Source of the DNA: a virus
Length of the DNA: 64,000 nucleotides
IMG/VR virus record: IMGVR_UViG_3300032308_002775
Span: 1 to 64,000 of that record
Reading direction: 5' to 3' (one strand)
Below, in pieces: positions 2,717 through 42,242 of this stretch. The notes below the pieces were generated by a model. The model was not told the DNA's origin. It ran no database searches and saw nothing but the letters and a program-made list of their open reading frames with translations. A program made the translations under genes and the position numbers. Numbering within the stretch: the stretch's first letter is position 1; each line of letters opens with the position of its first letter.

Positions 2717-3640
2717 GTGCATCCGCGCAACTACTCTCACATTCCGCGCCGCAAATACATCGAACGGCAACCGGGCGCGCAGAACCTCGCCGGGTTGGAG
2801 GTCTTGCTTCACCTGGACTCGTTCTGCCTGGGCGACACAGTCTGCCTGGCTTCGTGCCTGCCGGACTTTGTGCGCCACCACCGGCCCAAGAAACTCTGGG
2901 TCACCACGTTCTGGCCCGAACTGTTCGACCAGGCCGCCGAGTTCGAGATCCTGGACGCTGTCTCTGCGAGCGCCGAGCCGCTCGAGTGCGATAAGCTCGT
3001 CCTGGCGGGGTATCGCAAGCAGAGCCTGACGCACACGACCCGCGGCATGTTTTACGCCGCCCGGGACTCGATGGGGCTTCCGGAAGCTCCGCCTGGCGCG
3101 GCGCCCACCCGGCCGCTTCTCCGGCGGCCCATAAGCGGGACTTACCAGCCCAACAAGATCGTGATCGCGCCGGAGAGCACCAAGCAAATTGCGCGTTGGG
3201 ACTATCTGGGCATAGATATCTATGGCTGGCAGGCGGTCGTGGACAACTTAGTTCAGCGCGGTTACGAGGTGCACGATATTTCCTACGAGCACACGCTGAT
3301 GCTCCGCGGCGTCACGAAGCACGGCGGTGACGCAGACATTCAGTCCGCGGTGCAGCATCTCTGCGAAGCGCGCCTGTTCATTGGCCTGAGCTCGGGACTT
3401 GCCTGGCTGGCCTGGGCACATGTAATTCCAGTAGTCATGATCGCGGGTTTCACCAAGCCGCAGAACGAGTTTCCCTGCTACCGGGTCGAGAATCCGTACG
3501 CCTGCTCAGGTTGCTTTAACGTGTTTCCCAACATTCAGCGCGCCTGCCCGCTTTTTCAGGGCACGCCGCGGGAGCACGAGTGCCACCGAACGATTACGCC
3601 CGCGATGGTCCTGGCGCAGGTCGATCGGGCCCTGGTTTGA
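2717..3640 (+). CDS. TibC/Aah-like O-heptosyltransferase (GT9-related)
   Basis: About 307 residues. The middle (KIVIAPESTKQ, and SSGLAWLAWAHVIPVVMIAGF) matches the GT9 heptosyltransferase fold. The C-terminus carries a cysteine cluster (PCYRV, ACSGCF, RACPLFQG, HECHRTIT) like the iron-binding finger of the autotransporter heptosyltransferases TibC and Aah, which glycosylate Ser residues on adhesins. The next genes encode long fibre-like proteins, so protein O-heptosylation of tail fibres is an attractive inference. The GTG start at 2717 lacks an obvious ribosome binding site and is uncertain. The gene contains a perfect 14-base copy of the GATATC palindrome. Confidence 0.75.
   Translation: MHPRNYSHIPRRKYIERQPGAQNLAGLEVLLHLDSFCLGDTVCLASCLPDFVRHHRPKKLWVTTFWPELFDQAAEFEILDAVSASAEPLECDKLVLAGYRKQSLTHTTRGMFYAARDSMGLPEAPPGAAPTRPLLRRPISGTYQPNKIVIAPESTKQIARWDYLGIDIYGWQAVVDNLVQRGYEVHDISYEHTLMLRGVTKHGGDADIQSAVQHLCEARLFIGLSSGLAWLAWAHVIPVVMIAGFTKPQNEFPCYRVENPYACSGCFNVFPNIQRACPLFQGTPREHECHRTITPAMVLAQVDRALV
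3211..3224. repeat. GATATC palindrome site 2 (CATAGATATCTATG)
   Basis: Perfect 14-base palindrome inside the heptosyltransferase gene. It is read as I-D-I-Y and is followed by GGCTGG, as at the site near 31914. Confidence 0.6.
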
Positions 3641-3683: not shown

Positions 3684-4205
3684 ATGGTTCGCAAGAAGAT
3701 CTCCGACCTTGACCCGAAGGGCAATCTGGCGCCGACGGACATCATTCCGATCGTCGACACGGAGCTCAACCGGCGCAAAACCAAGCGCACCACGGTTCAG
3801 GACCTGATTAACGAGGTCAACGCCGTCACGCAGCCCGAAAAGGGCGCAGCAGGCGGCGTGGCGACGCTGGACTCGAACGCCCGGCTGAATACAGCGCAGC
3901 TCCCGGCCCTGGCCGTCACCGAGACGTTCACCGTCAGCTCAGAAGCGGCCATGCTGGCGCTTCCGGCACAGATGGGCGACGTGGCGATTCGCGAAGATCT
4001 CGGCCAGACATACATTTTGCAGGGCCAGAACGCCACGGTGCTTGATAACTGGGCGCTCTTGGCCGTGACCTCGCAGACGCTTGTCGGGTTAACCGACGTA
4101 GCTGATACAATACCGACTGATCGCGCCGCCCTTGTGTACGACCCGGACACAAACCAGTGGCGCCCCGCCAAACTCGACCGCCTCACGGATGGGGGCGCGT
4201 TTTAA
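3684..4205 (+). CDS. Tail-fibre-associated protein
   Basis: 173 residues. The N-terminus (KKISDLDPKGNLAPTDIIPI) resembles the segment found at the start of many phage fibre proteins. The middle (GVATLDSNARLNTAQLPAL and LTDVADTIPTDRAALVYD) is typical fibre-shaft sequence. The C-terminus ends in LTDGGAF, close to LDGGTF at the end of the next gene, suggesting a shared trimer cap or attachment tip. No catalytic motif. It directly precedes the 1002-residue fibre gene. Confidence 0.6.
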   Translation: MVRKKISDLDPKGNLAPTDIIPIVDTELNRRKTKRTTVQDLINEVNAVTQPEKGAAGGVATLDSNARLNTAQLPALAVTETFTVSSEAAMLALPAQMGDVAIREDLGQTYILQGQNATVLDNWALLAVTSQTLVGLTDVADTIPTDRAALVYDPDTNQWRPAKLDRLTDGGAF

Positions 4206-4246: not shown

Positions 4247-7200
4247 ATGGCTAATACGCTTCGCATCAAGCGCCGCACCACTGGCGCGTCTGGCGCCCCT
4301 TCGAGCCTCGCTAACGCCGAGCTGGCGTTTAACGAGGTCAACAACACGCTGTATTACGGCAAGGGCGACAGCGAAGGCGCGGCCACCAGCATCATCGCCA
4401 TCGGCGGCGACGGCACGTTTGCCACGAAGAGCTACGTCGACAGCGCCGTCTCCGGCGCGGCGCCCACGGGCGTGGCTTATTTGGCGCAGGACAACACCTG
4501 GGACGCCACAAAGACCAACACCTTCAACGGCACGGTGAACCTGGAAGGTACGTTCAAGATCGACAACGTCACGGTCTCCACCAGCGCTGACGAGCTGAAT
4601 CTGCTCGATAACGCACAGGCTAACACGGTCGTCAACAGCAAGGCGGTGATCTACGGCTCCGCGGGCCAGATTGCCGCGGCGACGCTGGATACGACCGGCA
4701 ACGTGACGGTGGGCGGCAACCTCACCGTGAACGGCACCACGACCACCGTGAACAGCACGGTAGTCACGATCGACGACCCGATCTTCACCCTCGGCGGCGA
4801 CGTGGCAGCCGCAGCCGACGACAACAAGGACCGCGGCATCGCCTTCCAGTGGCACACCGGCAGCGCGGCCAGAATTGGCTTTTTTGGCTACGACGACAGC
4901 GCGGCTGCGTTTACGTTTATTCCGGACGCTACGATCTCGAGCGAAGTTGTCTCGGGCACAGCGGGCGACCTGATCGTGGGCAAGGTCAACAACGTCACGT
5001 TTACGTCGCCCGCGAGTGCCGCGACGCTGACGCTGGGTTCGGGCAAGACGGTCTCGATCAGCAACACGCTGACGTTCACTGGCACGGACAGCTCTAGCGT
5101 GGCTTTTGGTGCGGGCGGCACGGTGACCTACACGAGCAACACGCTGGCGGTGTTTGCGGCCACCACGTCATCGCAGCTTGCTGGCGTGATCTCTGACGAA
5201 ACGGGCACTGGCGCGCTGGTGTTTGCGAACACGCCGACTCTGGTGACGCCCGTGCTGGGCACTCCCACGTCGGGCACGTTGACGAACTGCACCGGGCTGC
5301 CTGTCGCGACGGGTATCTCCGGCCTGGCTACTGGCGTGGCTACGTTTTTGGCGACGCCGTCTAGTGCGAACCTGGCCAGCGCCGTGACCGATGAGACTGG
5401 TTCGGGCGCCCTGGTGTTTGCCAACACGCCGACGCTCGTGACGCCCAATATCGGCGTGGCGACGGCGACGACCGTCAACAAAGTGACGCTCACGGCTCCG
5501 GCGACCGGCAGCACGCTGACCATTGCTGACAGCAAGACGCTCACCGTGAGCAACACGCTGACCTTCACCGGCACCGACGCCAGCTCGGTGGCTTTCGGTG
5601 CGGGCGGCACGGTGGCCTACACCGGCAACAAGCTCTCCGTGTTCGCGGCGACCAGCTCCAGTGAGCTGGCGGGCGTGATCTCTGACGAGACGGGTACTGG
5701 CGCCCTGGTGTTTGCCAACACCCCGACGCTGGTTACCCCAGTGCTCGGTACGCCGACCTCGGGAACTCTCACGAACTGCACTGGCCTGCCGGTGAGCACG
5801 GGTATCTCCGGCCTGGCTACTGGCGTGGCTACGTTTTTGGCGACGCCTAGCTCGGCCAACCTCGCGTCGGCCGTGACGGATGAGACAGGCACCGGGGCGC
5901 TGGTGTTCGCGAACACGCCGACCCTGGTCACTCCAGTGCTCGGCACGCCGACCTCGGGCACCCTGACCAACTGCACCGGCCTGCCGGTGAGCACTGGCAT
6001 CTCCGGCCTGGCTACTGGCGTGGCCACGTTCCTGGCGACTCCCTCGAGCGCCAATCTCGCCAGCGCCGTGACCGATGAGACTGGTTCGGGCGCTCTGGTG
6101 TTTGGCACGGGTCCAACGATTACCACGAGTATTCTTTCTGGTAGCGCCACGCTGGCTGTGTTCAACACCACGGCCACCACGGTGAACGCCTTTGGCGCCG
6201 CGACGACGCTCAGTATGGGAGCCGGGTCTGGCACGACGACGATTAACAACAATCTGACCGTCACTGGCAACCTGACGATCAACGGCACTACGACCACGGT
6301 GAACAGCACGGTAGTCACGATCGACGACCCGATCTTCACACTCGGTGGAGACACGGCGCCCGGCTCTGACGACAACAAGGACCGCGGCATCGAGTTTCGG
6401 TGGTACAGCGGCTCGGCCAAGGTTGGCTTCTTTGGCTTCGACGACAGCACCGGCAAGTTCACGTTTATCCCCGACGCCACGAACACCAGCGAGGTGTTCT
6501 CGGGCACGCTGGGCACGATCGACGTGGGCGCCGTGCACATCAACGGCTCGCAGATCGCCGCCAGCAACCTGAGCAACGGCACCACCGGCTCGGGCACCAT
6601 CGTCCTGGCCACCAGTCCGACGCTGGTCACGCCTGCCTTGGGTACGCCCAGCTCGGGTACCCTGACCAGCTGCACGGGACTGCCTGTCTCGACGGGCATC
6701 TCGGGCCTGGGCGCGGGCGTGGCGACGTTCTTGGCCACTCCCAGCTCGGCGAACCTGATCTCCGCGGTGAGCGACGAAACTGGCACCGGGGCGCTGGTGT
6801 TTGCGAACACGCCGACGCTCGTGACGCCCGTCCTGGGCACACCTACCAGCGGCACTTTGACCAACTGCACGGGTCTTCCGGTCAGCACGGGCGTTTCGGG
6901 CTTGGGCACTAACGTAGCGACGTTCCTGGCTACGCCCAGTTCCGCGAACCTGGCCGCGGCGCTCACCGACGAGACGGGTTCGGGGAAGGTCGTGTTCGAC
7001 ACGAGTCCTACTCTGGTCACGCCGACGCTCGGCGTCGCTTCGGCCACGAGCATTAACAAGGTCGCGATTACAGCGCCTGCCACCAGCGCGACTTTGACCA
7101 TTGCGAACGGCAAGACGCTCACCGTAAGCAATACGCTCACGTTTACGGGAACCGACAGCTCTTCGGTGGCTTTTGGAGCTGGCGGAACAGTGGTGTACGC

Positions 7201-7255
7201 CGATACGGTCTGCTCGGCCATTGCTAACTGCACGCTGGACGGCGGCACGTTCTAA
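4247..7255 (+). CDS. Large repetitive tail fibre protein
   Basis: 1002 residues, very rich in Thr, Ser, Gly and Ala with almost no Cys. The N-terminus (RIKRRTTGASGAPSSLANAE) is a common fibre attachment motif also seen in the 7367 gene (KIQIRRSATASAAPTAGQLD). The body has three repeat types: a unit of about 65 residues containing TPTLVTPVLGTPTSGTLTNC; a longer block around TVNSTVVTIDDPIFTLGGD (twice); and a block around LTVSNTLTFTGTD (three times). This suits a trimeric beta-rich shaft. GGAG lies nine bases before the ATG. Adhesin or side-fibre function is inferred. Confidence 0.8.
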   Translation: MANTLRIKRRTTGASGAPSSLANAELAFNEVNNTLYYGKGDSEGAATSIIAIGGDGTFATKSYVDSAVSGAAPTGVAYLAQDNTWDATKTNTFNGTVNLEGTFKIDNVTVSTSADELNLLDNAQANTVVNSKAVIYGSAGQIAAATLDTTGNVTVGGNLTVNGTTTTVNSTVVTIDDPIFTLGGDVAAAADDNKDRGIAFQWHTGSAARIGFFGYDDSAAAFTFIPDATISSEVVSGTAGDLIVGKVNNVTFTSPASAATLTLGSGKTVSISNTLTFTGTDSSSVAFGAGGTVTYTSNTLAVFAATTSSQLAGVISDETGTGALVFANTPTLVTPVLGTPTSGTLTNCTGLPVATGISGLATGVATFLATPSSANLASAVTDETGSGALVFANTPTLVTPNIGVATATTVNKVTLTAPATGSTLTIADSKTLTVSNTLTFTGTDASSVAFGAGGTVAYTGNKLSVFAATSSSELAGVISDETGTGALVFANTPTLVTPVLGTPTSGTLTNCTGLPVSTGISGLATGVATFLATPSSANLASAVTDETGTGALVFANTPTLVTPVLGTPTSGTLTNCTGLPVSTGISGLATGVATFLATPSSANLASAVTDETGSGALVFGTGPTITTSILSGSATLAVFNTTATTVNAFGAATTLSMGAGSGTTTINNNLTVTGNLTINGTTTTVNSTVVTIDDPIFTLGGDTAPGSDDNKDRGIEFRWYSGSAKVGFFGFDDSTGKFTFIPDATNTSEVFSGTLGTIDVGAVHINGSQIAASNLSNGTTGSGTIVLATSPTLVTPALGTPSSGTLTSCTGLPVSTGISGLGAGVATFLATPSSANLISAVSDETGTGALVFANTPTLVTPVLGTPTSGTLTNCTGLPVSTGVSGLGTNVATFLATPSSANLAAALTDETGSGKVVFDTSPTLVTPTLGVASATSINKVAITAPATSATLTIANGKTLTVSNTLTFTGTDSSSVAFGAGGTVVYADTVCSAIANCTLDGGTF
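5200..7040 (+). repeat. Tandem and dispersed repeats inside the fibre gene
   Basis: Units of about 195 bases (65 codons) start near 5710, 5905 and 6100, with further diverged copies starting near 5220, 6610 and 6800. Neighbouring copies differ mostly at third codon positions, so the repeats are old enough to drift but remain alignable. Confidence 0.8.
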
Positions 7256-7366: not shown

Positions 7367-9289
7367 ATGCCAAACAAGATTCAGATCAGGCGCAGCGCGA
7401 CAGCTAGCGCCGCGCCCACTGCCGGGCAGCTCGATGCCGGTGAACTGGCCATCAACACAGCTGATGGACGTCTGTTCGCCAAGAATTCTGCTGGTACGGT
7501 CATTAATCTGCCAGTTACAAGCATTTCTGGGCAGACAATTACGCCAGCCAAGATTGTTGGCGGAAGCGGCACCGCCGCTTTAGGCGCGCTCGCTATGGTC
7601 GGCGGCGGAGCGGAAAACACCGCAACAGGCGACTACTCAGCCGTGCTCGGCGGCCGATACAACACCGCGAGCGGCTTTTATGCCGCAGTCGGCGGCGGGC
7701 AGTACAACCTGGCGACAGCCGACTGGACGACGGTAAGTGGCGGCCGATACAACACTTCGGGCAGCGTGTACGGTACCGTTAGCGGCGGTTATCGTAACTA
7801 CGCGGCTAACACAAGCGCGACGGTCGGCGGCGGCGAATCGAACACGGCGTCTGGAATATTTTCGACTATTTGTGGCGGTAGTGGTCACATCGTTTCTGCT
7901 TGGGGCGCAGTGGTTGGCGGCGGTCAAGTAAATGTCGCGTCTGGTCGCTGGGCCACGGTTTCTGGCGGCGGGTACAACACGGCGTCTGGTGTTAATTCAC
8001 TTTCTGGCGGACTTAAAAACACAGCCAGCGGCGGCTCAAGCGTTATCTCTGGCGGCGGTATTTCTGGCACATTTACTGTCACGATCGCCAGCCCGGCTGT
8101 GATCACCATGTCGCTTCACGGCCTGGTAGCCAATGACACAGTCGTGTTTCAAACCACCGGCGCGTTGCCCACCGGCTTAACGCCGGGCACGACGTATCAC
8201 GTGCTCAGCACGGGCCTGACTGAAAGCGCGTTTCGCGTGGCCGCAACACAGGGCGGCACGGCGATCAACACGAGCGGCACGCAAAGCGGAACGCATACGC
8301 TGTATAGTTTTTCTGTCTTTCAGCTCGCTTCTGGTAACTCAGCAGTGATCAGCGGCGGGCAGAAGAACACTGCGTCTGGCGTAGTCTCTGTCGTAGGCGG
8401 TGGTCGTCGCAATACGGCCAGCGCGCTTGGTGCAGTTGTTGCAGGCGGCCGCGGTTGCATTGCGAGCGGCGCTAATGGATTTGTCGGCGCAGGTCGATAT
8501 AACACGGCCAGCGGCTATGACAGTACAACGGGTGGCGGGTTTAGCAGTCGCGCGACTGGTAATTGGAGCGCCGCGCTCAGTGGTTATGGAAACAGCGCAA
8601 CAGCAAACGTAAGCACTATTTGCGGCGGCAAAAACAACACTACCAGCGGCACGTATTCGAGTATTCTTGGCGGGCAGTCTAATAACACAGCGTCGTTTAG
8701 CAACGCACACATCATTGGCTCAAACATCACGGCCGACGCTGCCGACACGACGTTTGTTAATGCGCTCAAAATTGGCGGCAATGTTGCGCTGCATGCGGGC
8801 AACTACCTGAGCTACGTCACGAAGACGCTGCTGATATTCACACCAGACCAAGGGCAGCCCCCGGCGAGCAGCTTCGCCACGTTTGACACGCGTAATTCGG
8901 TGCTCGTGCTCGATTTTGATCCGCTCGCGGACGAGTCGATTGTGTTTATTGGCTGCGTGCCAACCAACGCCACGCTTACCAGCGGCCTCAAGGTGCGCAT
9001 CAACTGGACGGCCAGCACGGCCACGTCCGGCGCGTGCATCTGGAGTGTTGAGTTTGAGCGGATGAACACCGACATCGACGCTGACTCGTTTGCGACGGCT
9101 GCTACCGGTACCACGACGACCAACGGCACCAGCGGCGTTCCCAACGTCACCGAGATCACGATCACGACGATCGACTCGCTGGCGGCCGGAGAGTTCTTCC
9201 GGCTTAGGATTACTCGAGACGCCGACGCGGCAGGTGACACCATGGCGGGCGACGCGGAGCTGATCTCCGTGGCGGTGGAGATACCATAA
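7367..9289 (+). CDS. YadA-head-like tail fibre/adhesin
   Basis: 640 residues. Residues about 75-210 and 325-445 consist of repeats of about 14-16 residues with pattern GGxxNTASGxxxxVxGG, like the left-handed beta-roll of YadA-type trimeric autotransporter heads. A non-repeat domain of about 90 residues (from GTFTVTIASPAVITMS) is inserted between the two repeat blocks. The C-terminal 150 residues form a different beta-rich domain (VLVLDFDPLADESIVFIG). The N-terminus shares the fibre attachment motif with the previous fibre. It is probably a second, receptor-binding fibre. No clear ribosome binding site precedes the ATG. Confidence 0.75.
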   Translation: MPNKIQIRRSATASAAPTAGQLDAGELAINTADGRLFAKNSAGTVINLPVTSISGQTITPAKIVGGSGTAALGALAMVGGGAENTATGDYSAVLGGRYNTASGFYAAVGGGQYNLATADWTTVSGGRYNTSGSVYGTVSGGYRNYAANTSATVGGGESNTASGIFSTICGGSGHIVSAWGAVVGGGQVNVASGRWATVSGGGYNTASGVNSLSGGLKNTASGGSSVISGGGISGTFTVTIASPAVITMSLHGLVANDTVVFQTTGALPTGLTPGTTYHVLSTGLTESAFRVAATQGGTAINTSGTQSGTHTLYSFSVFQLASGNSAVISGGQKNTASGVVSVVGGGRRNTASALGAVVAGGRGCIASGANGFVGAGRYNTASGYDSTTGGGFSSRATGNWSAALSGYGNSATANVSTICGGKNNTTSGTYSSILGGQSNNTASFSNAHIIGSNITADAADTTFVNALKIGGNVALHAGNYLSYVTKTLLIFTPDQGQPPASSFATFDTRNSVLVLDFDPLADESIVFIGCVPTNATLTSGLKVRINWTASTATSGACIWSVEFERMNTDIDADSFATAATGTTTTNGTSGVPNVTEITITTIDSLAAGEFFRLRITRDADAAGDTMAGDAELISVAVEIP

Positions 9290-9933
9290 TGGCTTACTCC
9301 TTTAATGGAAGTTCGCAATATCTTAGTTGCCCGACAGGCGACCTTTTCGCCGACCTGCCAATTACTCTGGCCTGCTGGTTTAAGACCGCATCAAACACAA
9401 CAAATCAGGGATTGCTCAACATCTGCGACGCCGCGACAGGCGGGCAAGGCATTCGCATGAATGCGCAGGGCGCTGTTGCCGGAGACCCCATTCGTATTTT
9501 GGCGGTTGGCACTGCGACAACAGCCGTTGATACAACAGCCGGTTTTACAGCGAACACATGGACGCATGCCTGCGGCGTTTTTGCGAGCACGACCAGCCGC
9601 ACGGTGTACATCAACGGCGGAAACGCGAATACAAATACCGCAAGTTCGTCAGCCACCGGCGAGAATCGTTTGTTTATGGGCGCCACCCGTGCCGCGTCCG
9701 CGTTTTCGGGCTATTTGAACGGCCACCTCGCCGAAGTGGGCGTATGGAACGCGGCGCTTACCGCCGCCGAAGTAGCTTCGCTCGCGACCGGTGTATCACC
9801 GCGGTTGATTCGGCCAGAGAGCCTGACGGTTTACGCGCCGTTGCTGCGCGAGCTTATCGACGTGGGCGGCGTGGTTACAATCACCAACAACGGCGCAGCC
9901 ACCGTCTCCGACCACACGCGAGTCTATTCATAA
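9289..9933 (+). CDS. LamG/concanavalin-like lectin fibre protein
   Basis: 214 residues. The start SFNGSSQYLSCPTG, followed by ITLACWFKT and later GENRLFMGA and GYLNGHLAEVGVWNAALTAAEV, matches the LamG_3 jelly-roll pattern used for carbohydrate binding. The stop and start overlap with the previous gene as TAATG, so the proteins are translationally coupled and probably assemble together. A role as sugar-binding tip or fibre-bound lectin is inferred. Confidence 0.75.
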   Translation: MAYSFNGSSQYLSCPTGDLFADLPITLACWFKTASNTTNQGLLNICDAATGGQGIRMNAQGAVAGDPIRILAVGTATTAVDTTAGFTANTWTHACGVFASTTSRTVYINGGNANTNTASSSATGENRLFMGATRAASAFSGYLNGHLAEVGVWNAALTAAEVASLATGVSPRLIRPESLTVYAPLLRELIDVGGVVTITNNGAATVSDHTRVYS

Positions 9934-11251: not shown

Positions 11252-11503
11252 ATGCCGCACGAAATCACAACCACAATAACGAAAGACGAAATTGCGGCGC
11301 TCGATCGAGCTTGGGTGTTTCTTGGCCGGTTTAACGATTTGCGCAGCTCAAATGCAACATCCGCGGAACAGTATCGGCGTATGTTGCAGTTGCTCGGCTT
11401 AGACACACTTGCTGAAGCTTTGGTTGCAGACGAAAAAACGTTTAAGCATTTTTTAGTGCGGCTTGATACGGCGCAGGAAAAAAAGGAAAAAAGCAATGGC
11501 TGA
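11252..11503 (+). CDS. Hypothetical protein, 83 residues
   Basis: Not recognised. AAGGAG is eight bases before the ATG, so the gene is probably real. It is predicted to be mostly helical, has no Cys and ends in a lysine-rich tail (AQEKKEKSNG). It overlaps the cupin gene by eight bases, so the two are translationally coupled. Confidence 0.6.
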   Translation: MPHEITTTITKDEIAALDRAWVFLGRFNDLRSSNATSAEQYRRMLQLLGLDTLAEALVADEKTFKHFLVRLDTAQEKKEKSNG

Positions 11504-11924
11504 ACCCGCCAAAAGATTCATTCTCAACGTCGAGCAGCGCGTCTACGTGGAGAAATCCTGGGGCCATGAGGATTGGATCTACAACGGCCGGTATTGCGGC
11601 AAAAAGCTGCACGTCCGGAAGGGCAAGGAATGCTCGTTCCACTACCACCGGGTCAAGGACGAGGTGATGTACCTCGAGTCTGGTAAAATCCTGCTTACGT
11701 ACGGCTGGGACGAGGACCTGAGCCATGCGGCGCAGATTACCCTGACGCCGGACATGGCGTTCCATATTCCGCCCGGAATGTGGCACAAGTTCCAAGGCCT
11801 GGAAGAGTCAGTAATCACGGAGTTCAGCACGCACCACAACGACAAGGACGTGGTGCGCGCGGGCAAAGACGGCATGGAGGCCGCCGACGATGAAGAAGCG
11901 GAAGAAGCAGGCGCCGTTAGGTAA
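11496..11924 (+). CDS. Cupin, sugar-phosphate isomerase-like
   Basis: 142 residues. VEKSWGHEDWIYNG is the opening strand of the type II mannose-6-phosphate isomerase/guanylyltransferase cupin. ECSFHYHRVKDEVMYLESG is cupin motif 1 (metal ligands His, His, Glu), and PPGMWHKFQGLEESVITEF is motif 2 with the third His. One small beta-barrel metal enzyme or binding protein. It could supply or epimerise a sugar for the nearby glycosyltransferases. The acidic C-terminal tail (EAADDEEAEEAG) overlaps the next gene. Confidence 0.7.
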   Translation: MAEPAKRFILNVEQRVYVEKSWGHEDWIYNGRYCGKKLHVRKGKECSFHYHRVKDEVMYLESGKILLTYGWDEDLSHAAQITLTPDMAFHIPPGMWHKFQGLEESVITEFSTHHNDKDVVRAGKDGMEAADDEEAEEAGAVR

Positions 11925-18046: not shown

Positions 18047-18070
18047 ATGTTGCTGATAGAGGGAGCGCAC

Positions 18071-19651
18071 ATGCGCGTGCTTGCTTTAACAGTGTCGGAT
18101 CGCGTTTTCTTTTCCGGCACGCTGGCCGCAGTTAACTCGCTGTTGCACTATTCTGCGAACTGGCCTGCTGATTGGGTGTTGGATATCGCTGTTGTTTCAA
18201 GTGGCGAATACAACGAAGCGCTGACCGCGCCGCAAATAAACATGCTGACTCGCGGCGGCGTGCAGGTCTACAAACACACGGACTTTACAGCGCCTGGCCG
18301 CGTTCTAGGCGCCTGGCAGCTAAAAGCGTACGCAGCAAATGATCTCGCGCAACGCAATCAACACGCCGTTATTATCGGGTTTGATTCGGATCTTTTGTTC
18401 GCATCAGACGTGCGCGACGTTGTGACTCAGTGTCACGCGGACGGCAACTTTTGTGGCGGCGAAGACGGAAAAGGCGCGACTTACACCGCAGAATACGCCG
18501 CGTACGGAATTCCGGCTGGGTTGTCTGCTCCGTACATGTCGACGTCGTGCTACTTTTGTCCGCTCACCGATACCAATAAACACATCCTGCACGAGTGGGC
18601 GGAAAAAACGAATACGGCAAAATATGGGCCGCAAACAACTAAGGTCTATGCCGGGCACGGTGATCAGGGCGTGCTGAATGCCGTAATTGCGGCACACACG
18701 CGCGCCGTTAATGTCGTGCTTTTACCAAATGCGCTGTGGAGTCAGCACTGGCGCTACGAAACAGATGTTGTTGAATGGGACGGGCAGCATCTTGTTAACT
18801 ACACGGCAAGCAAACAGCCAATGCGAGCGTTGCATTGCGGCGGCAGTGATAAATTTTGGACACCAGCGCATTCGGCGCGCCGACTAAACGGCGGACAAAG
18901 TCAGCGGTGGAGCTACGCGCACTTTTTACGTTTCTTCCACTTTGGCCCGTTGTCGGTATGGGACATCGATCCGTTGATGGTGATTCCTGCCGAGCATCTG
19001 CATCTTTTTTCAGACGTTTTAAACTACCATCAGTTGATTTTTGCTATGGCGCCCGACGTGCGGAAGAAGTGGGCCGCATTGAGCTCGCAGTGGCTAGATC
19101 GCGCCATTTCTTCCGAAAAGGTTCGGCGCGCCATGTCTTTGCACGCCGACGGAAATGGTTCGATGAACGTCTATGTAGAGTTGGCGCGTGAGCTTTCGGC
19201 TGGCGGCACGTTAGTTGAAGTGGGTTCTTTTTACGGCGGCTCTGCAGTAACAGTTGCCGCTGCCACGCGTCATAACAACGTGCGTGTCATCTCGGTCGAA
19301 TCGTTCACGGGCAATCTTGACAATACTGTAGATGGGTTACCGCTTCCCGCAATTACAGAATATGTGCGCAATGTAAAGCAGGTATGGCCGTACCTAAACA
19401 TTGATACGGTAGCTCTGCCGGGGCAATTAGCGGCCGACATGTTCGAAGACAATTCTTTGGACATGGTATTTATTGACGGTGACCACTCAACGGCTGCCGT
19501 CCTGCGCGATATTGCAGTGTGGTGGCCAAAAGTTGCGCTCGGGGGCGTGCTGGCTGGCGATGATTACAGTTGGCGTACAGTAGCGGCTGCAGTCAAAGAA
19601 CGGTTTCCGCACGCGTCAAATAAGCACTCGGTGTGGTGGGTGAAAAAATGA
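18071..19651 (+). CDS. Glycosyltransferase-methyltransferase fusion
   Basis: 526 residues in two domains. The N-terminal half is a GT-A-like transferase with HAVIIGFDSDLLFASD containing DxD. The C-terminal part, about the last 170 residues, is a class I SAM methyltransferase of the Methyltransf_24 type: VEVGSFYGGSAVTVAAA (SAM loop), MVFIDGDHSTAAV and GGVLAGDDYS. The start at 18071 has AGGGAG six bases upstream; an ATG at 18047 touching the previous stop lacks a site. The fusion suggests sequential transfer and methylation of one sugar. This gene is visibly more AT-rich than the structural genes. Confidence 0.7.
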   Translation: MRVLALTVSDRVFFSGTLAAVNSLLHYSANWPADWVLDIAVVSSGEYNEALTAPQINMLTRGGVQVYKHTDFTAPGRVLGAWQLKAYAANDLAQRNQHAVIIGFDSDLLFASDVRDVVTQCHADGNFCGGEDGKGATYTAEYAAYGIPAGLSAPYMSTSCYFCPLTDTNKHILHEWAEKTNTAKYGPQTTKVYAGHGDQGVLNAVIAAHTRAVNVVLLPNALWSQHWRYETDVVEWDGQHLVNYTASKQPMRALHCGGSDKFWTPAHSARRLNGGQSQRWSYAHFLRFFHFGPLSVWDIDPLMVIPAEHLHLFSDVLNYHQLIFAMAPDVRKKWAALSSQWLDRAISSEKVRRAMSLHADGNGSMNVYVELARELSAGGTLVEVGSFYGGSAVTVAAATRHNNVRVISVESFTGNLDNTVDGLPLPAITEYVRNVKQVWPYLNIDTVALPGQLAADMFEDNSLDMVFIDGDHSTAAVLRDIAVWWPKVALGGVLAGDDYSWRTVAAAVKERFPHASNKHSVWWVKK

Positions 19652-20634
19652 CCGTGGCGCCCCGCAAAATCATTTTTCAAAACTGGCAAAGCCCGGGCGA
19701 CATCGTGATGCTGCTGTTCGCGCTCGACAGCCTGCATCGTAGCTATCCGGATGTGTTTATCACCGACGTGCGCTGCACGGCGCGCGAGATCTTCCACGGC
19801 AGTCCATTTATTACGCCGCTTGACGATAACGAAGAGGGCGTAATGGTCATCAAGGCCGAGTACCCCTCAATTCACCGTAGCAACACGCACCCGGTGCGCT
19901 TCGTTACCGCCTTTGCCGAGCACATGGAACAGCGCCTCGGCGTGCGAATTCGACCGGGGCCGTTTCATAGCGTGGTGCACATTACGGCAGAAGAAGAACG
20001 CTGGGTTTCCGCGGTGCATGAGGTTCTCAAGCGCGACGTGCCGTACTGGATCATCAACGCGGGGCACAAAAGCGATTTCACGGCGAAGGCCTGGGACTTC
20101 GAGCGCTACCAGGCGCTCGTCGACCGCTTTCCTGAGATCTGGTTTGTGCAGGTTGGTTCGCCGGAGCACACGCATCCGCCGCTGACAGGCCCTAACGTAC
20201 TTAACTTCGTGGGGAAAACCGACACGCGACAGCTCATTCGGCTCGTGTGGCACTCCTTCGGCGTTATTTCTGGCGTCAGCTTCCCGATGCACCTCGCCTA
20301 TGCTGTGCCGCCGCATCCGCGTTTTAATCGCAAAAGCCGCGCCAATATCACGATCGCCGGGGGTCGTGAGCCTGCACACTGGGAGGAGGGCCCGAACCAC
20401 CACTATCTGCACACCTGCGGTATGCTGCCCTGCTGCGACATGGGCGGTTGTTGGAAGAGTCGCGTGGTGCCGCTTGGCGACGGCGACGGGAAAGACAACA
20501 GTCTGTGCGTATCGCCGGTGATGCTTGGCAGCGGCCAGTGGATTGGTCGTTGCATGGAAATGATTAGCGTGGATGACGTGGCCCGGGTTATTGAGAAGTA
20601 CATGACCAACCTCGAGTACGAACCAATATCGTGA
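19648..20634 (+). CDS. GT9-like (heptosyltransferase-related) glycosyltransferase
   Basis: 328 residues. The start KIIFQNWQSPGDIVMLLFAL matches the GT9 opening strand and helix, which reads GDIVxxxPAL in ADP-heptose transferases. The C-terminal half has NAGHKSDFTAKAWDFERYQ, QVGSPEHTHPPL and LIRLVWHSFGVISGVSFPMH, the second Rossmann domain. A cysteine-rich insertion (TCGMLPCCDMGGCW) is unusual and recalls, but does not copy, the TibC iron finger. It starts on an ATGA overlap with the fusion gene. Confidence 0.6.
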   Translation: MTVAPRKIIFQNWQSPGDIVMLLFALDSLHRSYPDVFITDVRCTAREIFHGSPFITPLDDNEEGVMVIKAEYPSIHRSNTHPVRFVTAFAEHMEQRLGVRIRPGPFHSVVHITAEEERWVSAVHEVLKRDVPYWIINAGHKSDFTAKAWDFERYQALVDRFPEIWFVQVGSPEHTHPPLTGPNVLNFVGKTDTRQLIRLVWHSFGVISGVSFPMHLAYAVPPHPRFNRKSRANITIAGGREPAHWEEGPNHHYLHTCGMLPCCDMGGCWKSRVVPLGDGDGKDNSLCVSPVMLGSGQWIGRCMEMISVDDVARVIEKYMTNLEYEPIS

Positions 20635-23720: not shown

Positions 23721-25016
23721 ATGCGCAGCTGGGATTTTTTTGACACGCTTTTTGGGCGGGCTTGCGGCGAGCCGTGGCGCGTGTTTGAGCTCATGGGCGG
23801 CGAAGAGTTTAAGCATTTTCGCCAACAGGCTGAGCAAAAAAGCGACAAGACGTTTGCGGGGATTTATCGGGAACTTCGGCAAATTACAAATTGGCCGCGG
23901 GAGCGCGTAGACACACTGCAGGCAGAAGAGTGGGAGTGGGAGCGGCGGCTTTCCTTTCCGATCTTTGAAAATGTACGCGACGTCAAATCGGGTGATTTGA
24001 TCATCACTGACACTTATTTTGACGCGCAGCAGGTTCGCGAGTTGGCAGACTGCATTCAGTTGCCCGCTGTAGACATCATTGCAACGTACGGCGGAAAACA
24101 TCACGGCACAGTTTGGAAAAATTTGCGCCGGTCGTCGCGCAAAATTGCAACACACACAGGCGATAATCGCCACGCAGACTATGACCAAGCGCGCAAACAC
24201 GGTTTTACGGCAATAAACTATCGCGCAGGTAGTTTTACGGGGCTTGAAAAAACTTTGATTATGGCGGGGCATTGGGACGTTGCAGGCTTAGCGAGAGCCG
24301 TGCGACTCCAAAACCCGCACCGGTCTCCAAGCTTGTTGTGGGGCGCGTGGAACAAACAGGCGCAGTACAATATTCCGTTCCTGTTGTTGTGCGCAGCAAA
24401 ATTACGGCAATATGTTGCCGATAACAATCACCAGCATGTTTGGTTTTTGTCGCGCGATACATGCCTGCTGCAGCGCGTTTTTATGGCGCTGTACCCCGAG
24501 GTTCCCGCGGAGACGTTCTACGCTAGTCGCCAGACGTATACGCACTCGTCGGAATCTTTTATTACCTATGCGCGCGCCGCAATCAACAAACCACGCCCGT
24601 TGTTTGTAGACCTTCAGGGCACCGGCAAAAGCGCGGCTGAATTTATCAACAAAACCCAAATTGCCTTGCCGTACCTGTTTTGCGCCATACCCAGCACGCT
24701 GGCCGCTTTTACGCCAGCATTGTATCGATTGAACTTTATCGGCACTGAGTTAGAAGTCTTCAATTACGATGTTCAAGGGCGGGTAATTGACGTGTTTGAT
24801 GGGCAGCCTGTGCGTGCGGCGCTGGAATACGATAAGAAAATAGTGCAGGCAAGCCACGCCGCAGTGGACTGCCTTTTGAAGCACATTTTTCGTTCGCCCG
24901 GAGCGCCAAGCAATGAGTTAATGGACATGTTGTTCCGGCATGTCCGCCGTCATGCGCCGCGAGAGTTGCTTAAACAACACCAGGCGCATCATCCATTTAT
25001 TCAATCAAAGGATTGA
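23721..25016 (+). CDS. HAD-like protein of the glycan module
   Basis: 431 residues. The start SWDFFDTLFGRAC carries a HAD motif I variant (DFFDTL). LIITDTYFDAQQVRELA is the second motif (T in ITDTY), and TGDNRHADYDQARKHG the acidic third. The C-terminal 230 residues are unassigned. Long proteins starting with DxFDTL are common in polysaccharide clusters, where they may act on sugar phosphates. CAGGG precedes the ATG. Confidence 0.55.
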   Translation: MRSWDFFDTLFGRACGEPWRVFELMGGEEFKHFRQQAEQKSDKTFAGIYRELRQITNWPRERVDTLQAEEWEWERRLSFPIFENVRDVKSGDLIITDTYFDAQQVRELADCIQLPAVDIIATYGGKHHGTVWKNLRRSSRKIATHTGDNRHADYDQARKHGFTAINYRAGSFTGLEKTLIMAGHWDVAGLARAVRLQNPHRSPSLLWGAWNKQAQYNIPFLLLCAAKLRQYVADNNHQHVWFLSRDTCLLQRVFMALYPEVPAETFYASRQTYTHSSESFITYARAAINKPRPLFVDLQGTGKSAAEFINKTQIALPYLFCAIPSTLAAFTPALYRLNFIGTELEVFNYDVQGRVIDVFDGQPVRAALEYDKKIVQASHAAVDCLLKHIFRSPGAPSNELMDMLFRHVRRHAPRELLKQHQAHHPFIQSKD

Positions 25017-25018
25017 GT

Positions 25019-25642
25019 GTGGACTACAGTCAGATTCCGGCGTTTTGTGTCAATTTGGCGGCGCGCGCTGACCGCTGGAGTCAAGCACAAATCGAATTTG
25101 CGCGTATTGCGTATCCGGTTACGCGGTGGTTTGCGGCGCATTATGCGCAGTCGCCTTATCCGGGTCTTTCTACTGGCGCCGCCGGGTGTCTAGACAGCCA
25201 CAAGGCGCTCTGGCGGCATTGTCTCAATGAAAACCTAGATATGATTGCTGTTTTTGAGGACGACGTCGTCTTTTCAAGTGATTTTGCCGCCGTGTTTCCA
25301 CTGGCCGCGGCCGAACTACCGGAAGATTGGGACGTTTGGCACCTCCACTCGTCAAAAGTGCCGCAGTCGGGCGCAGGCAAGTACCTCGTGCGCGCGCGCA
25401 ACAAGCTTTGGGGCACGCACGGCTATCTAATCCGCCGCCGCGGCTGCGAAAGGGCGCTAGCGCTGCCTGACGACGTACCGGCGGACTACCGCTTGAGTGA
25501 ATACCTGGATCAGCGGGGCGGGCAGGTGTACGCCACCCGGCAAGAACATGCCCTCGCGTTTCAACAGGGAGACGACTCCGACATTCCCCGTACGGCGCAG
25601 CTTGAGTTTTGGCGCGAACAGCGTCAACGATTTTGTCGTTGA
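25019..25642 (+). CDS. GT25-family glycosyltransferase
   Basis: 207 residues. FCVNLAARADRWSQAQIEFA and GAAGCLDSHKALWRHCLNEN, then MIAVFEDDVVFSSDF (metal site EDD) and WGTHGYLIRRRGCERAL match the LPS GT25 family (Lob, LgtB type), galactosyltransferases in many Gram-negative bacteria. The GTG at 25019 follows AAAGGA by six bases and fits better than a TTG on the previous stop. It ends the glycan cluster. Confidence 0.8.
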   Translation: MDYSQIPAFCVNLAARADRWSQAQIEFARIAYPVTRWFAAHYAQSPYPGLSTGAAGCLDSHKALWRHCLNENLDMIAVFEDDVVFSSDFAAVFPLAAAELPEDWDVWHLHSSKVPQSGAGKYLVRARNKLWGTHGYLIRRRGCERALALPDDVPADYRLSEYLDQRGGQVYATRQEHALAFQQGDDSDIPRTAQLEFWREQRQRFCR

Positions 25643-30991: not shown

Positions 30992-31801
30992 ATGGCAAGG
31001 ACGCCATCAAATCACGTTCTGCCGACCGGAGAAATCCTGCGCAAGCTTTTTGCGTTCGGATACTTTGGCTCAAAGACCTGGGCCAAGGTTCGGCAGATCA
31101 AAGGCGCAGAGCTGACGCGCGCCATCCGCGAGTACCAGCGTTTTCACGGCCTGGATCCGGATGGCCGCGTCGACGAAACCACGGCGCACGTACTTGAACG
31201 GCGCCGCTGCGGGCTGCCCGACTTCAACTTTTCGGCGGGCGACACGGAGTGCAAGTGGCCGCACAAGGCGATCACCTACCACCCCAAGCTTGTGCTGCCA
31301 GGCATCAACGCCGAGCAGGCCAAGCAGGCGTTCGACATCGCTTTCAGTCAGTGGGCTCGTGTTTGCAACATTGAGCCGGAGTACGTGGAGGATCCGAAAA
31401 AAGCCAACATCCTGGCGCGTTCGGGCAAGGGCAAGAAGAGCGGCCTGGACGCCCGCGGCGGAACACTGGCCTGGAGTGAGCTGCCCTGCGGCGTTCACGA
31501 GAACATCCAGCTCGACCAGATGTACGACGAGGCGGAGGCCTGGAGCTTTAACATGGCCGTCGCCGTGATGTGCCACGAGCTGGGGCACGCCCTGGGCCTG
31601 CCCCACCTGGCCAACGGCAACCTGATGGCGCCCTACTACGACCCGAACGTCACCGAGCCCCAGGAAGGCGACATCCGTGAGATCCAGGACCTGTACGGCA
31701 AGCGCAAGGTGCCGTACTCCAAGCTCAAGGACGCGTCGATCGAGCTGGGCGGCACGATCATCATCAACGGCAAGCCTTACGTCCTCGTCCCAAAAACTTG
31801 A
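30992..31801 (+). CDS. Matrixin metalloprotease with cysteine switch
   Basis: 269 residues. Residues about 8-68 resemble a PG_binding_1 propeptide domain (REYQRFHGLDPDGRVDETT). R72-C73-G-L-P-D is the cysteine-switch motif of matrix metalloproteinases, whose Cys blocks the zinc in the zymogen. HELGHALGLPH (H195, E196, H199, H205) is the full matrixin zinc motif, and the Met-turn is M212 in NGNLMAPYY. A late domain (TIIINGKPYVLV) is beta-rich. No secretion signal, so it may be carried in the virion or leave through a holin. Substrate unknown; a protein-based cell envelope is possible. Confidence 0.85.
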   Translation: MARTPSNHVLPTGEILRKLFAFGYFGSKTWAKVRQIKGAELTRAIREYQRFHGLDPDGRVDETTAHVLERRRCGLPDFNFSAGDTECKWPHKAITYHPKLVLPGINAEQAKQAFDIAFSQWARVCNIEPEYVEDPKKANILARSGKGKKSGLDARGGTLAWSELPCGVHENIQLDQMYDEAEAWSFNMAVAVMCHELGHALGLPHLANGNLMAPYYDPNVTEPQEGDIREIQDLYGKRKVPYSKLKDASIELGGTIIINGKPYVLVPKT

Positions 31802-35931: not shown

Positions 35932-36849
35932 ATGGCAGAAACCAAACAAAGCGCTTCGAACTGGACCAGCTATTTTCTCGGCGAGTCCACCAGCCCGGCC
36001 ACGCAGATGTTTAACAAGGCGCGGGAGGCTGTAACCGCTGCGGATACAGCCAAGTGGAATCAGCAGCACGGCCAGACCCTGCTCAACACGATGGCGCTCA
36101 CGGGCGGCGTCGGCATGGGCGGCCTGGCGCTCTACCACCTGCTCCGCGGCCTGAAGCCGACCGGCAAGAAGGAGCGGAAGTACCAAAACATTGCCGCGGG
36201 TTCGCCGGTCATGGCCAAGTCGCCGCTTGAGGCGCCGCAGGAGAAGGCGGCTGTTCTCGACCAAATCGTCAGCGGTGTCGGATCCGTGCCGGGCGCGATT
36301 GTTGACTCTTTCCCCAGGCTGTTCAAGTCGCTGGGTGAAGCTGGCGCCGCGCCCAAAGATCCCAACATGCTGCGCGGTGCGGTCGCCACGACGCTCGGCA
36401 CCGGCCTGGGCCTGGGCGCCCTGTACGGCGGCGGCAAGCTGATCAACTCGATCATGGCAAAGAAGCAGAAGGACGACGCGACCGACGAAGTCGAAGAGGC
36501 CCGCGCCCGGTATCACGCCATTCTCGCGGGCAAGGAAGCCGCCGCGCTCGACAAGCTGTATGCCCGTTATCAGGAAAAGCGCGCCGAGGGCTGGCTGGAC
36601 GGTTTGTTGGAAATTGGCACGGATTCGGCGCCCCGCGTGGCTTTGACGTCCATGCTGCTGGCCGGACTCGGCGCGGGCGGCATTGGCGCGAAGTACATGT
36701 ACGACCAGACGGCAGCGAAGACCCGCGGCGAAAACCTGGCCAAGGCCCAGGCATCGCGCGCGCGCATGAAGGGCCTGCCGACGATGTGGGTTGACCCGGA
36801 AGAACTTGTGAAGGTTAAGCAGCTGGCAGAACAAAGCAGCGATGAGTGA
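35932..36849 (+). CDS. Gly-rich virion/membrane-associated protein
   Basis: 305 residues. Three small-residue hydrophobic stretches (LLNTMALTGGVGMGGLALYH, VATTLGTGLGLGALYGGGKL and VALTSMLLAGLGAGGIGAKY) separated by charged helices. Like 29108 and 49872 it looks suited to crossing or penetrating a membrane during DNA entry. It ends on a GTGA overlap with the polymerase gene, so the two are coupled. Confidence 0.5.
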   Translation: MAETKQSASNWTSYFLGESTSPATQMFNKAREAVTAADTAKWNQQHGQTLLNTMALTGGVGMGGLALYHLLRGLKPTGKKERKYQNIAAGSPVMAKSPLEAPQEKAAVLDQIVSGVGSVPGAIVDSFPRLFKSLGEAGAAPKDPNMLRGAVATTLGTGLGLGALYGGGKLINSIMAKKQKDDATDEVEEARARYHAILAGKEAAALDKLYARYQEKRAEGWLDGLLEIGTDSAPRVALTSMLLAGLGAGGIGAKYMYDQTAAKTRGENLAKAQASRARMKGLPTMWVDPEELVKVKQLAEQSSDE

Positions 36850-41261: not shown

Positions 41262-41274
41262 CACGGAGGTTTCC

Positions 41275-42009
41275 ATGAGTTTCACGGTCAATCCCGAACT
41301 GCTGAAGATGGCGCGCCATGCCCTCGAAAAGTCGGCGGTGGTGCCATCCGACGCGGCGATGATGGCGGCAGGCGGCGCGCCCCCAATGGGCGGCGAACCG
41401 CCCGATCCTTCCATGCTTGGCGTTCAGGGCGCCGCCCAACCGGTTGACCCAGCGACTGCTGCCATGGGCGCCGCGCCGCCTCCGGGCGCTGACCCGACTG
41501 GCGCGGCCACCGCTGCGGCGCCCCCTGCCGCGGCGGCCCCGGCTCCGATGCCACCGGCCACGCCGACTGGCGGCGCACCTGGCCAGCAGAAGCTCAAGCC
41601 CGAGCAGATGATGCAGATGCTCGACTACCGGCTTTACAACATGCAGCAGCAGCTCACGGCGATCATGAACGCCATGGGCGTTCAGGTTCCCCCCGAGTCG
41701 CTCGTCCTGCCGCCCGGCACGACCGGCGCGCCTCCAGCCGAGACCGCGCTGCCCGGCGGACCGATGGCTCCGCCGCCCCAGGACCCTAACGCCGCTGGTG
41801 GTCCGATGCCTCCAGGCGGCCCGGTGCCCCCGGGCGGCCCGATGGATCCCAGCCAGCCTCCGATGGACCCCGCCGCTGCCAAGCAGGCGAACTGGTGGGA
41901 TAAGCCGTTGGCGAAGTTTGCTGAAGAACAACCTGACGAGCCGACGTCGATCCAGAATCTGGCGGCGGCGGCGGGCATCCTGCTGAGGAACATGGGGCGT
42001 GCGCGTTAG
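41275..42009 (+). CDS. Pro/Ala/Gly-rich protein between polymerase genes
   Basis: 244 residues, about 70% Ala, Pro, Gly and Met (GAAPPPGADPTGAATAAAPP). Only a short helical core (KPEQMMQMLDYRLYNMQQQL) and a C-terminal helix (LAKFAEEQPDEPTSIQNLAA) look ordered. CGGAGG is eight bases before the ATG. It overlaps the next gene. It could be a flexible linker or assembly factor for the polymerase, but this is position only. Confidence 0.55.
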   Translation: MSFTVNPELLKMARHALEKSAVVPSDAAMMAAGGAPPMGGEPPDPSMLGVQGAAQPVDPATAAMGAAPPPGADPTGAATAAAPPAAAAPAPMPPATPTGGAPGQQKLKPEQMMQMLDYRLYNMQQQLTAIMNAMGVQVPPESLVLPPGTTGAPPAETALPGGPMAPPPQDPNAAGGPMPPGGPVPPGGPMDPSQPPMDPAAAKQANWWDKPLAKFAEEQPDEPTSIQNLAAAAGILLRNMGRAR

Positions 42010-42241
42010 ATTTCAGAGCAAGTTGCAGCCGACCGTCGCACCCGCGGACAGCGTGGTGATCGAGGACGACCTGGGAAACCCGCTCTTCGTGGCGTCTCAG
42101 CTCACCGACTCGATCATTTTTGCTGATGCGCGGGATGCAGATTTTCACGCGCTTATACGCCAGCTCGGCATCGACAAAGTGGTTTCCGTTAACGAGGTCG
42201 CGCCTAAACCGCTGAACAAGAACGTGATCTGGACGCCGTAA
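41999..42241 (+). CDS. Hypothetical 80-residue protein
   Basis: GTG start with GAGGAA upstream, overlapping the previous gene by 11 bases, and ending one base before the beta' C-terminal gene. A compact alpha/beta pattern (SVVIEDDLGNPLFVASQL). It does not resemble the missing part of beta', so it does not bridge the split. Confidence 0.5.
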   Translation: MRVRFQSKLQPTVAPADSVVIEDDLGNPLFVASQLTDSIIFADARDADFHALIRQLGIDKVVSVNEVAPKPLNKNVIWTP

Positions 42242-42242
42242 C

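Follow-up and report, generated by a model that had tools for sequence, protein, structure and literature searches.

An open reading frame at 2717-3640 of an uncultured large bacterial virus encodes a genuine but divergent relative of the glycosyltransferase TibC that is no standard member of the TibC family, and fibre modification by this TibC-like enzyme is the best-supported reading of its role. The stretch of DNA analysed, hereafter the window, comprises 64,000 nucleotides (positions 1 to 64,000 of IMG/VR record IMGVR_UViG_3300032308_002775); the virus's own record (G000) holds 153,669 bases and a sister record 197,309. The protein shares homology, fold, the catalytic Asp and the iron-finger Cys residues with TibC, its gene recurs together with repeat fibres and a sulfotransferase, and the same virus encodes an ADP-heptose epimerase and an HldE-like protein. 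We rate it slightly above an even chance that the enzyme decorates fibres within a neighbourhood building a sulfated glycan on them.

A short iron-finger relative of TibC

The gene and the two segments that carry the comparison with TibC are the following.

2717-3640, + strand: TibC-like iron-finger GT9 glycosyltransferase, short form without N-terminal barrel (307 aa, GTG start, open frame)
2834-2836, + strand: codon of Asp-40, equivalent of the catalytic Asp-110 of TibC (by alignment; role from PMC4358343)
3503-3583, + strand: iron-finger segment with Cys-263, Cys-266, Cys-277 and Cys-289 (codons from 3503, 3512, 3545 and 3581; alignment to TibC)

The first-pass annotation had named the product a TibC-like heptosyltransferase with an iron-finger Cys cluster, lying before fibre genes, and its "TibC-like" was confirmed by both sequence and fold. 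Residues 137-304 matched NCBIfam TIGR04414 (hepto_Aah_TibC) with an E-value of 1.3e-34 and 119.8 bits, under the curated cut-off of 200, and the Pfam GT9 family PF01075 was matched with an E-value of 1e-5 and 25.4 bits, exceeding its cut-off of 22. The TibC entries 4rb4 and 4rap (phmmer E 2.2e-19 and 6.6e-19) were the sole solved relatives by sequence at E-values up to 1. A ColabFold model built on a 10-sequence alignment (mean pLDDT 74.5; weak at residues 246-262 and 271-280, which make up much of the iron-finger region) had TibC as its top fold match (Foldseek E 1.7e-16), with Z 22.3 and an rmsd of 3.4 A over 269 residues, which places the predicted structure in the GT9-type GT-B fold; the next matches were the GT9 enzymes WaaF, WaaC and 3tov.

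According to PMC4358343, the iron of TibC is held by Cys-339, 342, 358 and 370, Asp-110 is the catalytic base, and ADP-heptose is held by Thr-226, Lys-230, Arg-286 and Trp-305; Ala at Lys-230 or Arg-286 abolishes or largely diminishes activity, and removal of 80 or 95 residues from the N-terminus inactivates TibC. The Cys cluster proved real: C263, C266, C277 and C289 align with the iron ligands of TibC, and all of the 107 phage TibC-like locus entries (a set that was not dereplicated and has a few contigs twice) show these four residues, which are predicted to bind iron. D40 and W230, at the positions of Asp-110 and Trp-305, were likewise invariant in the 107 entries aligned. At the position of Lys-230 the protein has A159, with Ala or Ser in all 15 short-branch entries (see below) and Lys in all 92 other phage TibC-like entries; Lys-156, three residues before, was invariant across the 10 short-branch proteins aligned. 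A211 stands at the position of Arg-286, where Arg is kept in just 19 of the 92 other phage entries. Ser-225 occupies the Pro-300 site of TibC; AAH has Ser there and accepts both ADP-heptose isomers, and the P300S variant of TibC gains the same breadth (PMC4358343).

By alignment and in the predicted model, the N-terminal beta-barrel (TibC residues 1-97) is absent from the protein, in which the catalytic Asp lies at residue 40 instead of 110 and which has no space for it. The beta-hairpin thumb region (TibC Phe-265 and Val-266) is 8 residues shorter in the alignment, with no clear hairpin assignment. We considered classing the protein with TibC and AAH as a bacterial autotransporter heptosyltransferase (BAHT) and rejected this because Lys-230 and Arg-286 are replaced, the barrel is absent and the TIGR04414 score is under the cut-off.

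Gene neighbourhood of the window

Further genes to which the argument refers are listed here.

20-874, + strand: sulfotransferase (PF13469 E 5.5e-15; phrog_27463 E 1.9e-50; likely start codon at 71)
859-1851, + strand: 330-aa ORF, suggested by eye to be GT-A-like (YLDSD motif); no family match
3684-4205, + strand: 173-aa fibre-like protein directly 3' of the TibC-like gene (PHROG tail/structural families, e.g. phrog_23595 minor tail protein, E 2.1e-13)
4247-7255, + strand: 1002-aa Thr/Ser-rich structural/fibre protein (phrog_6002 virion structural protein, E 1.1e-89)
7367-9289, + strand: 640-aa fibre with YadA-head-like 15-residue repeats, the proposed acceptor (PF21300 LbR, repeats)
9289-9933, + strand: 214-aa laminin-G/ConA-like lectin-fold protein (PF13385 E 2.2e-22)
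18047-19651, + strand: 534-aa protein with C-terminal methyltransferase domain (PF13578 E 1.3e-16)
19633-20634, + strand: second, weak GT9-like ORF (PF01075 E 0.0068, under cut-off)
25013-25642, + strand: GT25 glycosyltransferase (PF01755 E 4.3e-17)

The sulfotransferase frame is open from base 2, i.e. to the edge of the virus record, and its 56.7 bits exceed the PF13469 cut-off of 27. The motifs P-R-x-x-S-T and R-D...S, which we take to be those of the PAPS site, were invariant in the 14 sulfotransferases aligned, the window's included. The first-pass annotation leaves this gene unmentioned; the comparisons below mark it as a recurrent partner. It is the single PF13469 gene found in the virus's own record, and a 330-aa ORF, an HNH gene and a small ORF separate it from the TibC-like gene.

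The annotated position beside fibre genes with YadA-like heads was borne out, as was the Ser/Thr-richness of the downstream genes, which lie on the same strand. The 1002-aa protein has 19.4% Thr and 10.0% Ser, the highest Thr+Ser among the six proteins measured, and the 640-aa fibre 12.8% and 11.1%. The repeats of the latter, of clear 15-residue period, span residues about 75-229 with a second block at about 320-440; its match to the LbR family PF21300 (E 5e-6, 27 bits) lies slightly under the cut-off of 30, and the repeat DNA pattern matched 4 times in the window vs 0 in 100 shuffles. A single place with LbR was found in each of two records, beside the transferase both times: 7565-8053 in the virus's own (153,669 bases) and 109582-113111 in that of the sister (197,309 bases).

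The GT9-like ORF at 19633-20634 resembles a GT9 protein near record position 95458 (E 2.4e-38). This is a 633-aa protein (L002:1147-3048) with an N-terminal GT9 domain above the cut-off (PF01075 E 6.3e-13), and a further heptosyltransferase-like gene of this virus.

Some other genes of the window may be recorded here. The sole tRNA gene found in it (tRNA-Met, 1873-1945) runs across the start position called for the HNH ORF at 1879-2358. A cupin/lyxose-isomerase-like gene at 11463-11924, near the fibre and glycan genes, is shared with the sister virus (L007:17620-18024). A metalloprotease of the matrixin type (PF00413, E 1.6e-18), which also has a peptidoglycan-binding domain, lies at 30992-31801, and large ORFs at 36846-44123 match phage multi-subunit RNA polymerase beta-subunit families.

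A short branch found in viruses

Two subfamily scans of IMG/VR gave the identical ten loci, which together with the window form 8 clusters at 90% identity. The branch was supported by an SH-aLRT value of 100 in a quick tree that carried SH-aLRT support alone, and the identity of its members with the window protein ranges from 47 to 71%. A cellular origin found no support in that two pattern scans of an 84,980-species genome collection returned 27 and 69 stretches, none holding a relative by those patterns. On these scans of IMG/VR and the genome collection, the short branch is so far virus-only. A comparison of the window protein with 50,697 phage records gave TibC-like matches in only 4 at an E-value of 1e-3; one of the 4 is Microcystis phage Mel-JY01, in which the TibC-like part ends a 1226-aa protein annotated as FkbM methyltransferase.

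The neighbourhood of the TibC-like gene with repeat fibres recurred in all 8 short-branch clusters. In the AT-rich viruses, repeat fibres are typically followed by GT8, the TibC-like gene, a second GT9-like protein (GT9b), the sulfotransferase, an APS-kinase-like and a nucleotidyltransferase-like gene, in this order; L003 and L014 lack sulfotransferase and kinase, and no kinase was seen in L008. In the sister locus, whose TibC-like protein is 70% identical to that of the window, the order is repeat fibres, sulfotransferase, TibC-like gene and a GT8-methyltransferase fusion (L007:10849-12363). GT9b had no family match of weight, and its model (pLDDT 92) is GT9-like (3tov E 1e-10, WaaF E 9e-10); the window gave no hit for it. 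The sulfotransferase accompanies the TibC-like gene in 6 of the 8 clusters, and the records of the other two (G002, G008) held none either.

Repeat fibres, TibC-like genes and sulfotransferases

In the counts that follow, many loci are clipped by contig ends, and locus counts are not independent because some contigs carry two locus identifiers; cluster counts are given where made. In the table of neighbourhood ORFs, the upper coordinate of minus-strand entries is 3 bases too large.

An ORF with at least 3 YadA-head-like repeat motifs was present in 8/8 short clusters vs 3/49 other phage TibC-like clusters in the fetched flank (Fisher p 1e-7, kinship ignored), and shuffled ORFs reached 3 motifs in 15 of 10,365 trials. 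The 3 positive clusters among the 49 were all sulfotransferase-positive. Relatedness weakens these p-values: when kinship on the TibC tree was corrected for, the link between fibre and sulfotransferase typically agreed in 5 of 6 independent pairs and tied in 1 (p 0.06). LbR against sulfotransferase gave [[3,0],[5,41]] (p 0.003) in the TibC-only sample and [[15,2],[5,41]] on a 63-cluster tree, the latter table being biased because some of its rows were drawn from the repeat or sulfotransferase scans.

A scan by the repeat DNA pattern alone returned at least 120 loci; 94 of those listed had a repeat ORF, and 54 of these were at least 8 kb long. Among these 54, which come from the matches listed, the sulfotransferase occurred in 18, GT9b in 20, the APS-kinase-like gene in 6 and the TibC-like gene in 2, and 32, with short flanks, had none of the six profiles sought. 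Control loci (at least 120) were drawn by one arbitrary 16-base pattern and are thus not matched fibre loci; among the matches listed, the fibre, transferase and sulfotransferase features were absent from all 120, and the 18/54 for the sulfotransferase stands against 0/73 control loci of at least 8 kb. Conversely, we examined the best 80 of at least 591 relatives of the window sulfotransferase, 80 loci that form 63 clusters. A repeat fibre was present in 26 of these best 80 (23 clusters), vs 0/120 control loci among the matches listed, GT9b in 38 and the TibC-like gene in 8 (7 clusters). Within this best-80 set, 6/7 TibC-like clusters had a repeat fibre vs 17/56 others (p 0.008), and GT9b showed no enrichment with the repeat fibre ([[11,12],[18,22]], p 1). 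Strong periodicity (period 14-24) was seen in the ORF lying closest ahead of the sulfotransferase cassette in 26/61 cases, and in 13/740 control ORFs, 11 of the 26 having at least 3 YadA-head-like motifs; with ORFs of at least 400 aa only, the figures were 18/29 vs 9/238.

With 46/49 other TibC-like clusters lacking a repeat fibre and 2/54 repeat loci having a TibC-like gene, neither gene requires the other. Because of the repeat-pattern, sulfotransferase and control scans, we regard the sulfotransferase as a more general companion of repetitive fibres than the TibC-like gene, which is one among several transferases occurring with it. A fixed gene cassette was considered and found no support: GT9b was not enriched and gave no hit in the window, two short clusters lack the sulfotransferase, and the 32 repeat-fibre loci above held none of the profiles.

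Other arrangements were also seen. In L368-L374, L376, L378 and L382, GT9b or the sulfotransferase is immediately preceded by a fibre gene of another class, whose repeats are 17 residues long (SNFLG..AG..AT.A). In L388, L389 and L417, a GT9-like protein of about 350 aa and a sulfotransferase lie behind a repetitive gene with, by eye, RCC1-like repeats; in L388 the GT9-like protein gave a faint heptosyltransferase match (E 0.025). L419 (Marine virus AG-345-L05) had the sole GT9b match in the phage collection at an E-value of 1e-10, adjoined by a sulfotransferase; YadA-head-like repeats were absent from its 16.8-kb stretch.

Supply of sugar and sulfate donors

The "heptosyl" part of the annotated function stood only in part. 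In its favour, the virus's own record encodes, at 129714-130682, an ADP-heptose 6-epimerase HldD (TIGR02197, 300.5 bits, cut-off 274.6) and, at 139400-140914, a 504-aa protein that spans both HldE domains; so does the sister virus, with an epimerase at L421:1885-2820 (287.1 bits against the same cut-off) and an HldE-like protein at L424:9432-10952 (221.3 bits). Against it, two donor-binding residues of TibC are replaced. HldE was the best-scoring family for the 504-aa protein even though its scores fall under the cut-offs (PRK11316 224.6/521, TIGR02198 110/345 and TIGR02199 150/181.5 bits). HldD above the cut-off was found only in the virus's own and the sister record (2/10 records), as was PfkB (2/8); the AT-rich records had neither (0/8 and 0/6). 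Among 50,697 phage records, only 16 had the epimerase at an E-value of 1e-30, and two of the 16 bear Salmonella contig names. Given the epimerase and the HldE-like protein, ADP-heptose is a plausible donor in the window's virus and its sister. GmhA-type SIS_2 and NTP_transferase PF00483 each gave 0/10 records, and the 380-aa protein before the HldE-like gene had no family match; with no GmhA found, the heptose-phosphate precursor would be host-derived.

As for sulfate, 38 loci of our sets had an APS-kinase-like gene, 37 of them together with the sulfotransferase, through which many had been fetched; among loci fetched without it, 23 of 24 had both genes (18/18 and 5/6, not dereplicated, the latter among the matches listed). 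Of the kinases tested, only two, both from the sulfotransferase scan (L385 and L377), passed the apsK cut-off of 138.7 with 231 and 229 bits. The protein of L009 scored 65 bits and most others look alike in the alignment, which makes the function of most APS-kinase-like proteins uncertain. The virus's own and sister records gave no APS kinase hit, so the window's virus would use host PAPS; with GmhA absent as well from the 10 records, which may be fragments, both donors would depend on the host.

In 33 of the 38 kinase loci, the APS-kinase-like and an NMNAT-like adenylyltransferase gene are separate genes. In three loci, single ORFs of about 285 aa (L388:6925-7782, L398:11185-12039 and L401:6601-7467) weakly match both profiles at E-values up to 1e-5 and the NMNAT-like one alone at 1e-8; those of L388 and L398 also match NMNAT families. 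From their sequences, these might possibly be minimal PAPS synthases.

Discussion

The protein is very probably an active transferase, a reduced form of the GT-B, iron-finger kind of TibC and AAH. That it acts on a virion protein, be it the virus's own fibre or another, seems rather likely to us; for ADP-heptose as the donor in the window's virus the evidence appears evenly balanced, and sulfation of the product is conceivable, with slightly less than an even chance. During infection, the enzyme would move a sugar, most likely heptose from ADP-heptose, to Ser/Thr in loops of the repetitive YadA-head-like fibre encoded by neighbouring genes. Heptose or a like sugar would be added in the host cytoplasm before assembly, other transferases would extend the glycan and the nearby sulfotransferase would then sulfate it, giving a virion with sulfated, sugar-coated fibres; the linkage is presumed, and the benefit might lie in adsorption, stability or shielding of the fibres.

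ADP-heptose is also an LPS precursor, and the main rival explanation is that the transferase, together with the other glycosyltransferases, HldE/HldD and the sulfotransferase, remodels the LPS or another surface glycan of the host and so excludes competing phages; it would lie near the fibre genes as part of a host-recognition island that includes them too. WaaC and WaaF among the next fold matches fit with this, as do the glycosyltransferases located away from the fibres (GT25 and the GT9 protein near record position 95458), and marine pelagimyophage host-recognition clusters combine tail fibres with glycosyltransferases that are read as O-chain modifiers (PMC7029224). We nevertheless hold host LPS remodelling to be rather unlikely: the closest relatives, TibC and AAH, modify proteins (PMC4358343), the repeat-fibre neighbourhood recurs in several lineages, and what precedes the sulfotransferase cassette is frequently a gene for a short-period repeat protein; a tie to fibre repeats is not predicted by LPS editing.

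A protein glycosyltransferase with a donor other than ADP-heptose, or with another virion protein as acceptor (e.g. the 1002-aa or a capsid protein), would accord with the donor site replaced throughout the short branch, with the high Thr+Ser content of the 1002-aa protein and with the AT-rich records, which have GT8, GT9b and a nucleotidyltransferase-like gene in place but no HldD above the cut-off and no PfkB. The HldE-like protein and HldD in both GC-rich members and the Ser at the AAH-type selectivity position speak against this, and we judge it improbable. Least probable by far is the view of the protein as a relic, decayed or non-catalytic, or as a structural helper, to which the reduced architecture, the replaced donor residues and the low family score might point; the frame is intact, the catalytic Asp, the Trp and the four Cys are invariant over a branch as divergent as 47-71% identity to the window protein, and the position near fibres recurs.

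Fibre modification thus remains our preferred reading, and a wider version of it can be put forward as a tentative proposal that we hold for rather doubtful: uncultured tailed phages might carry a portable gene set for decorating their own beta-roll fibres with sulfated glycans. For the virus of the window, the set would comprise the HldE-like protein and HldD, for most of the ADP-heptose supply, a slim iron-finger transferase and a PAPS sulfotransferase, and in other viruses an APS kinase besides. The recurring neighbourhood offers a testable alternative, namely that the acceptor is the virion's own repetitive fibres. If true, unexplained phage sulfotransferases would be virion-protein-modifying enzymes instead of metabolic genes, the charge and sugar carried by phage fibres would contribute to host recognition or protection at a level not considered when receptors are predicted from sequence, and the short branch would provide a small protein glycosyltransferase of the iron-finger type that could be studied and put to use.

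Comparison with known systems

Phage virion glycosylation is of an already known kind. Mycobacteriophage capsid and tail proteins are reportedly glycosylated, the phages being thought to modify their own virion proteins with their own glycosyltransferases. The system proposed here is alike in using self-encoded glycosyltransferases on virion proteins and differs in transferase families and host, and we know of no report of sulfation for those mycobacteriophage proteins.

Phage sulfotransferases appear as genes without settled function in the parts of PMC10580990 and PMC8290583 available to us. Those of OM43 phages, S-SRM01 and glacier-ice viruses belong to the same family, PF13469, and the cassette sulfotransferase matches S-SRM01 and two other Synechococcus phages. 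In the source texts as available they are listed as metabolic genes, with function left open or general, whereas here they are tied to repetitive fibres and glycosyltransferases. In the CC-licensed PMC literature, to the extent its texts were available, we found no link of phage sulfotransferases or TibC-like enzymes to fibres, nor the short branch, its residue changes or the tie between sulfotransferase and repetitive fibre.

Other phage TibC-like proteins, from uncultured phages and Mel-JY01, share the iron-finger GT9 domain and are likewise virus-encoded. Unlike the short branch, they keep Lys-230, often lie within ORFs of 700-1600 aa and, in most clusters (46/49), have a fetched flank free of repeat fibres.

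TibC and AAH glycosylate the adhesins TibA and AIDA-I with heptose, and TibC binds the beta-helix of TibA (PMC4358343). Compared with them (4rap, 4rb4), the window protein is about 100 residues shorter, barrel-less and altered at Lys-230 and Arg-286; it is virus-encoded, scores under the TIGR04414 cut-off and lies near a sulfotransferase. It is like them in the GT9-type GT-B fold, the catalytic Asp, the Trp-305 equivalent and the four iron-finger Cys, and, presumably, in having a neighbouring partner gene whose product, a surface protein, has many beta repeats.
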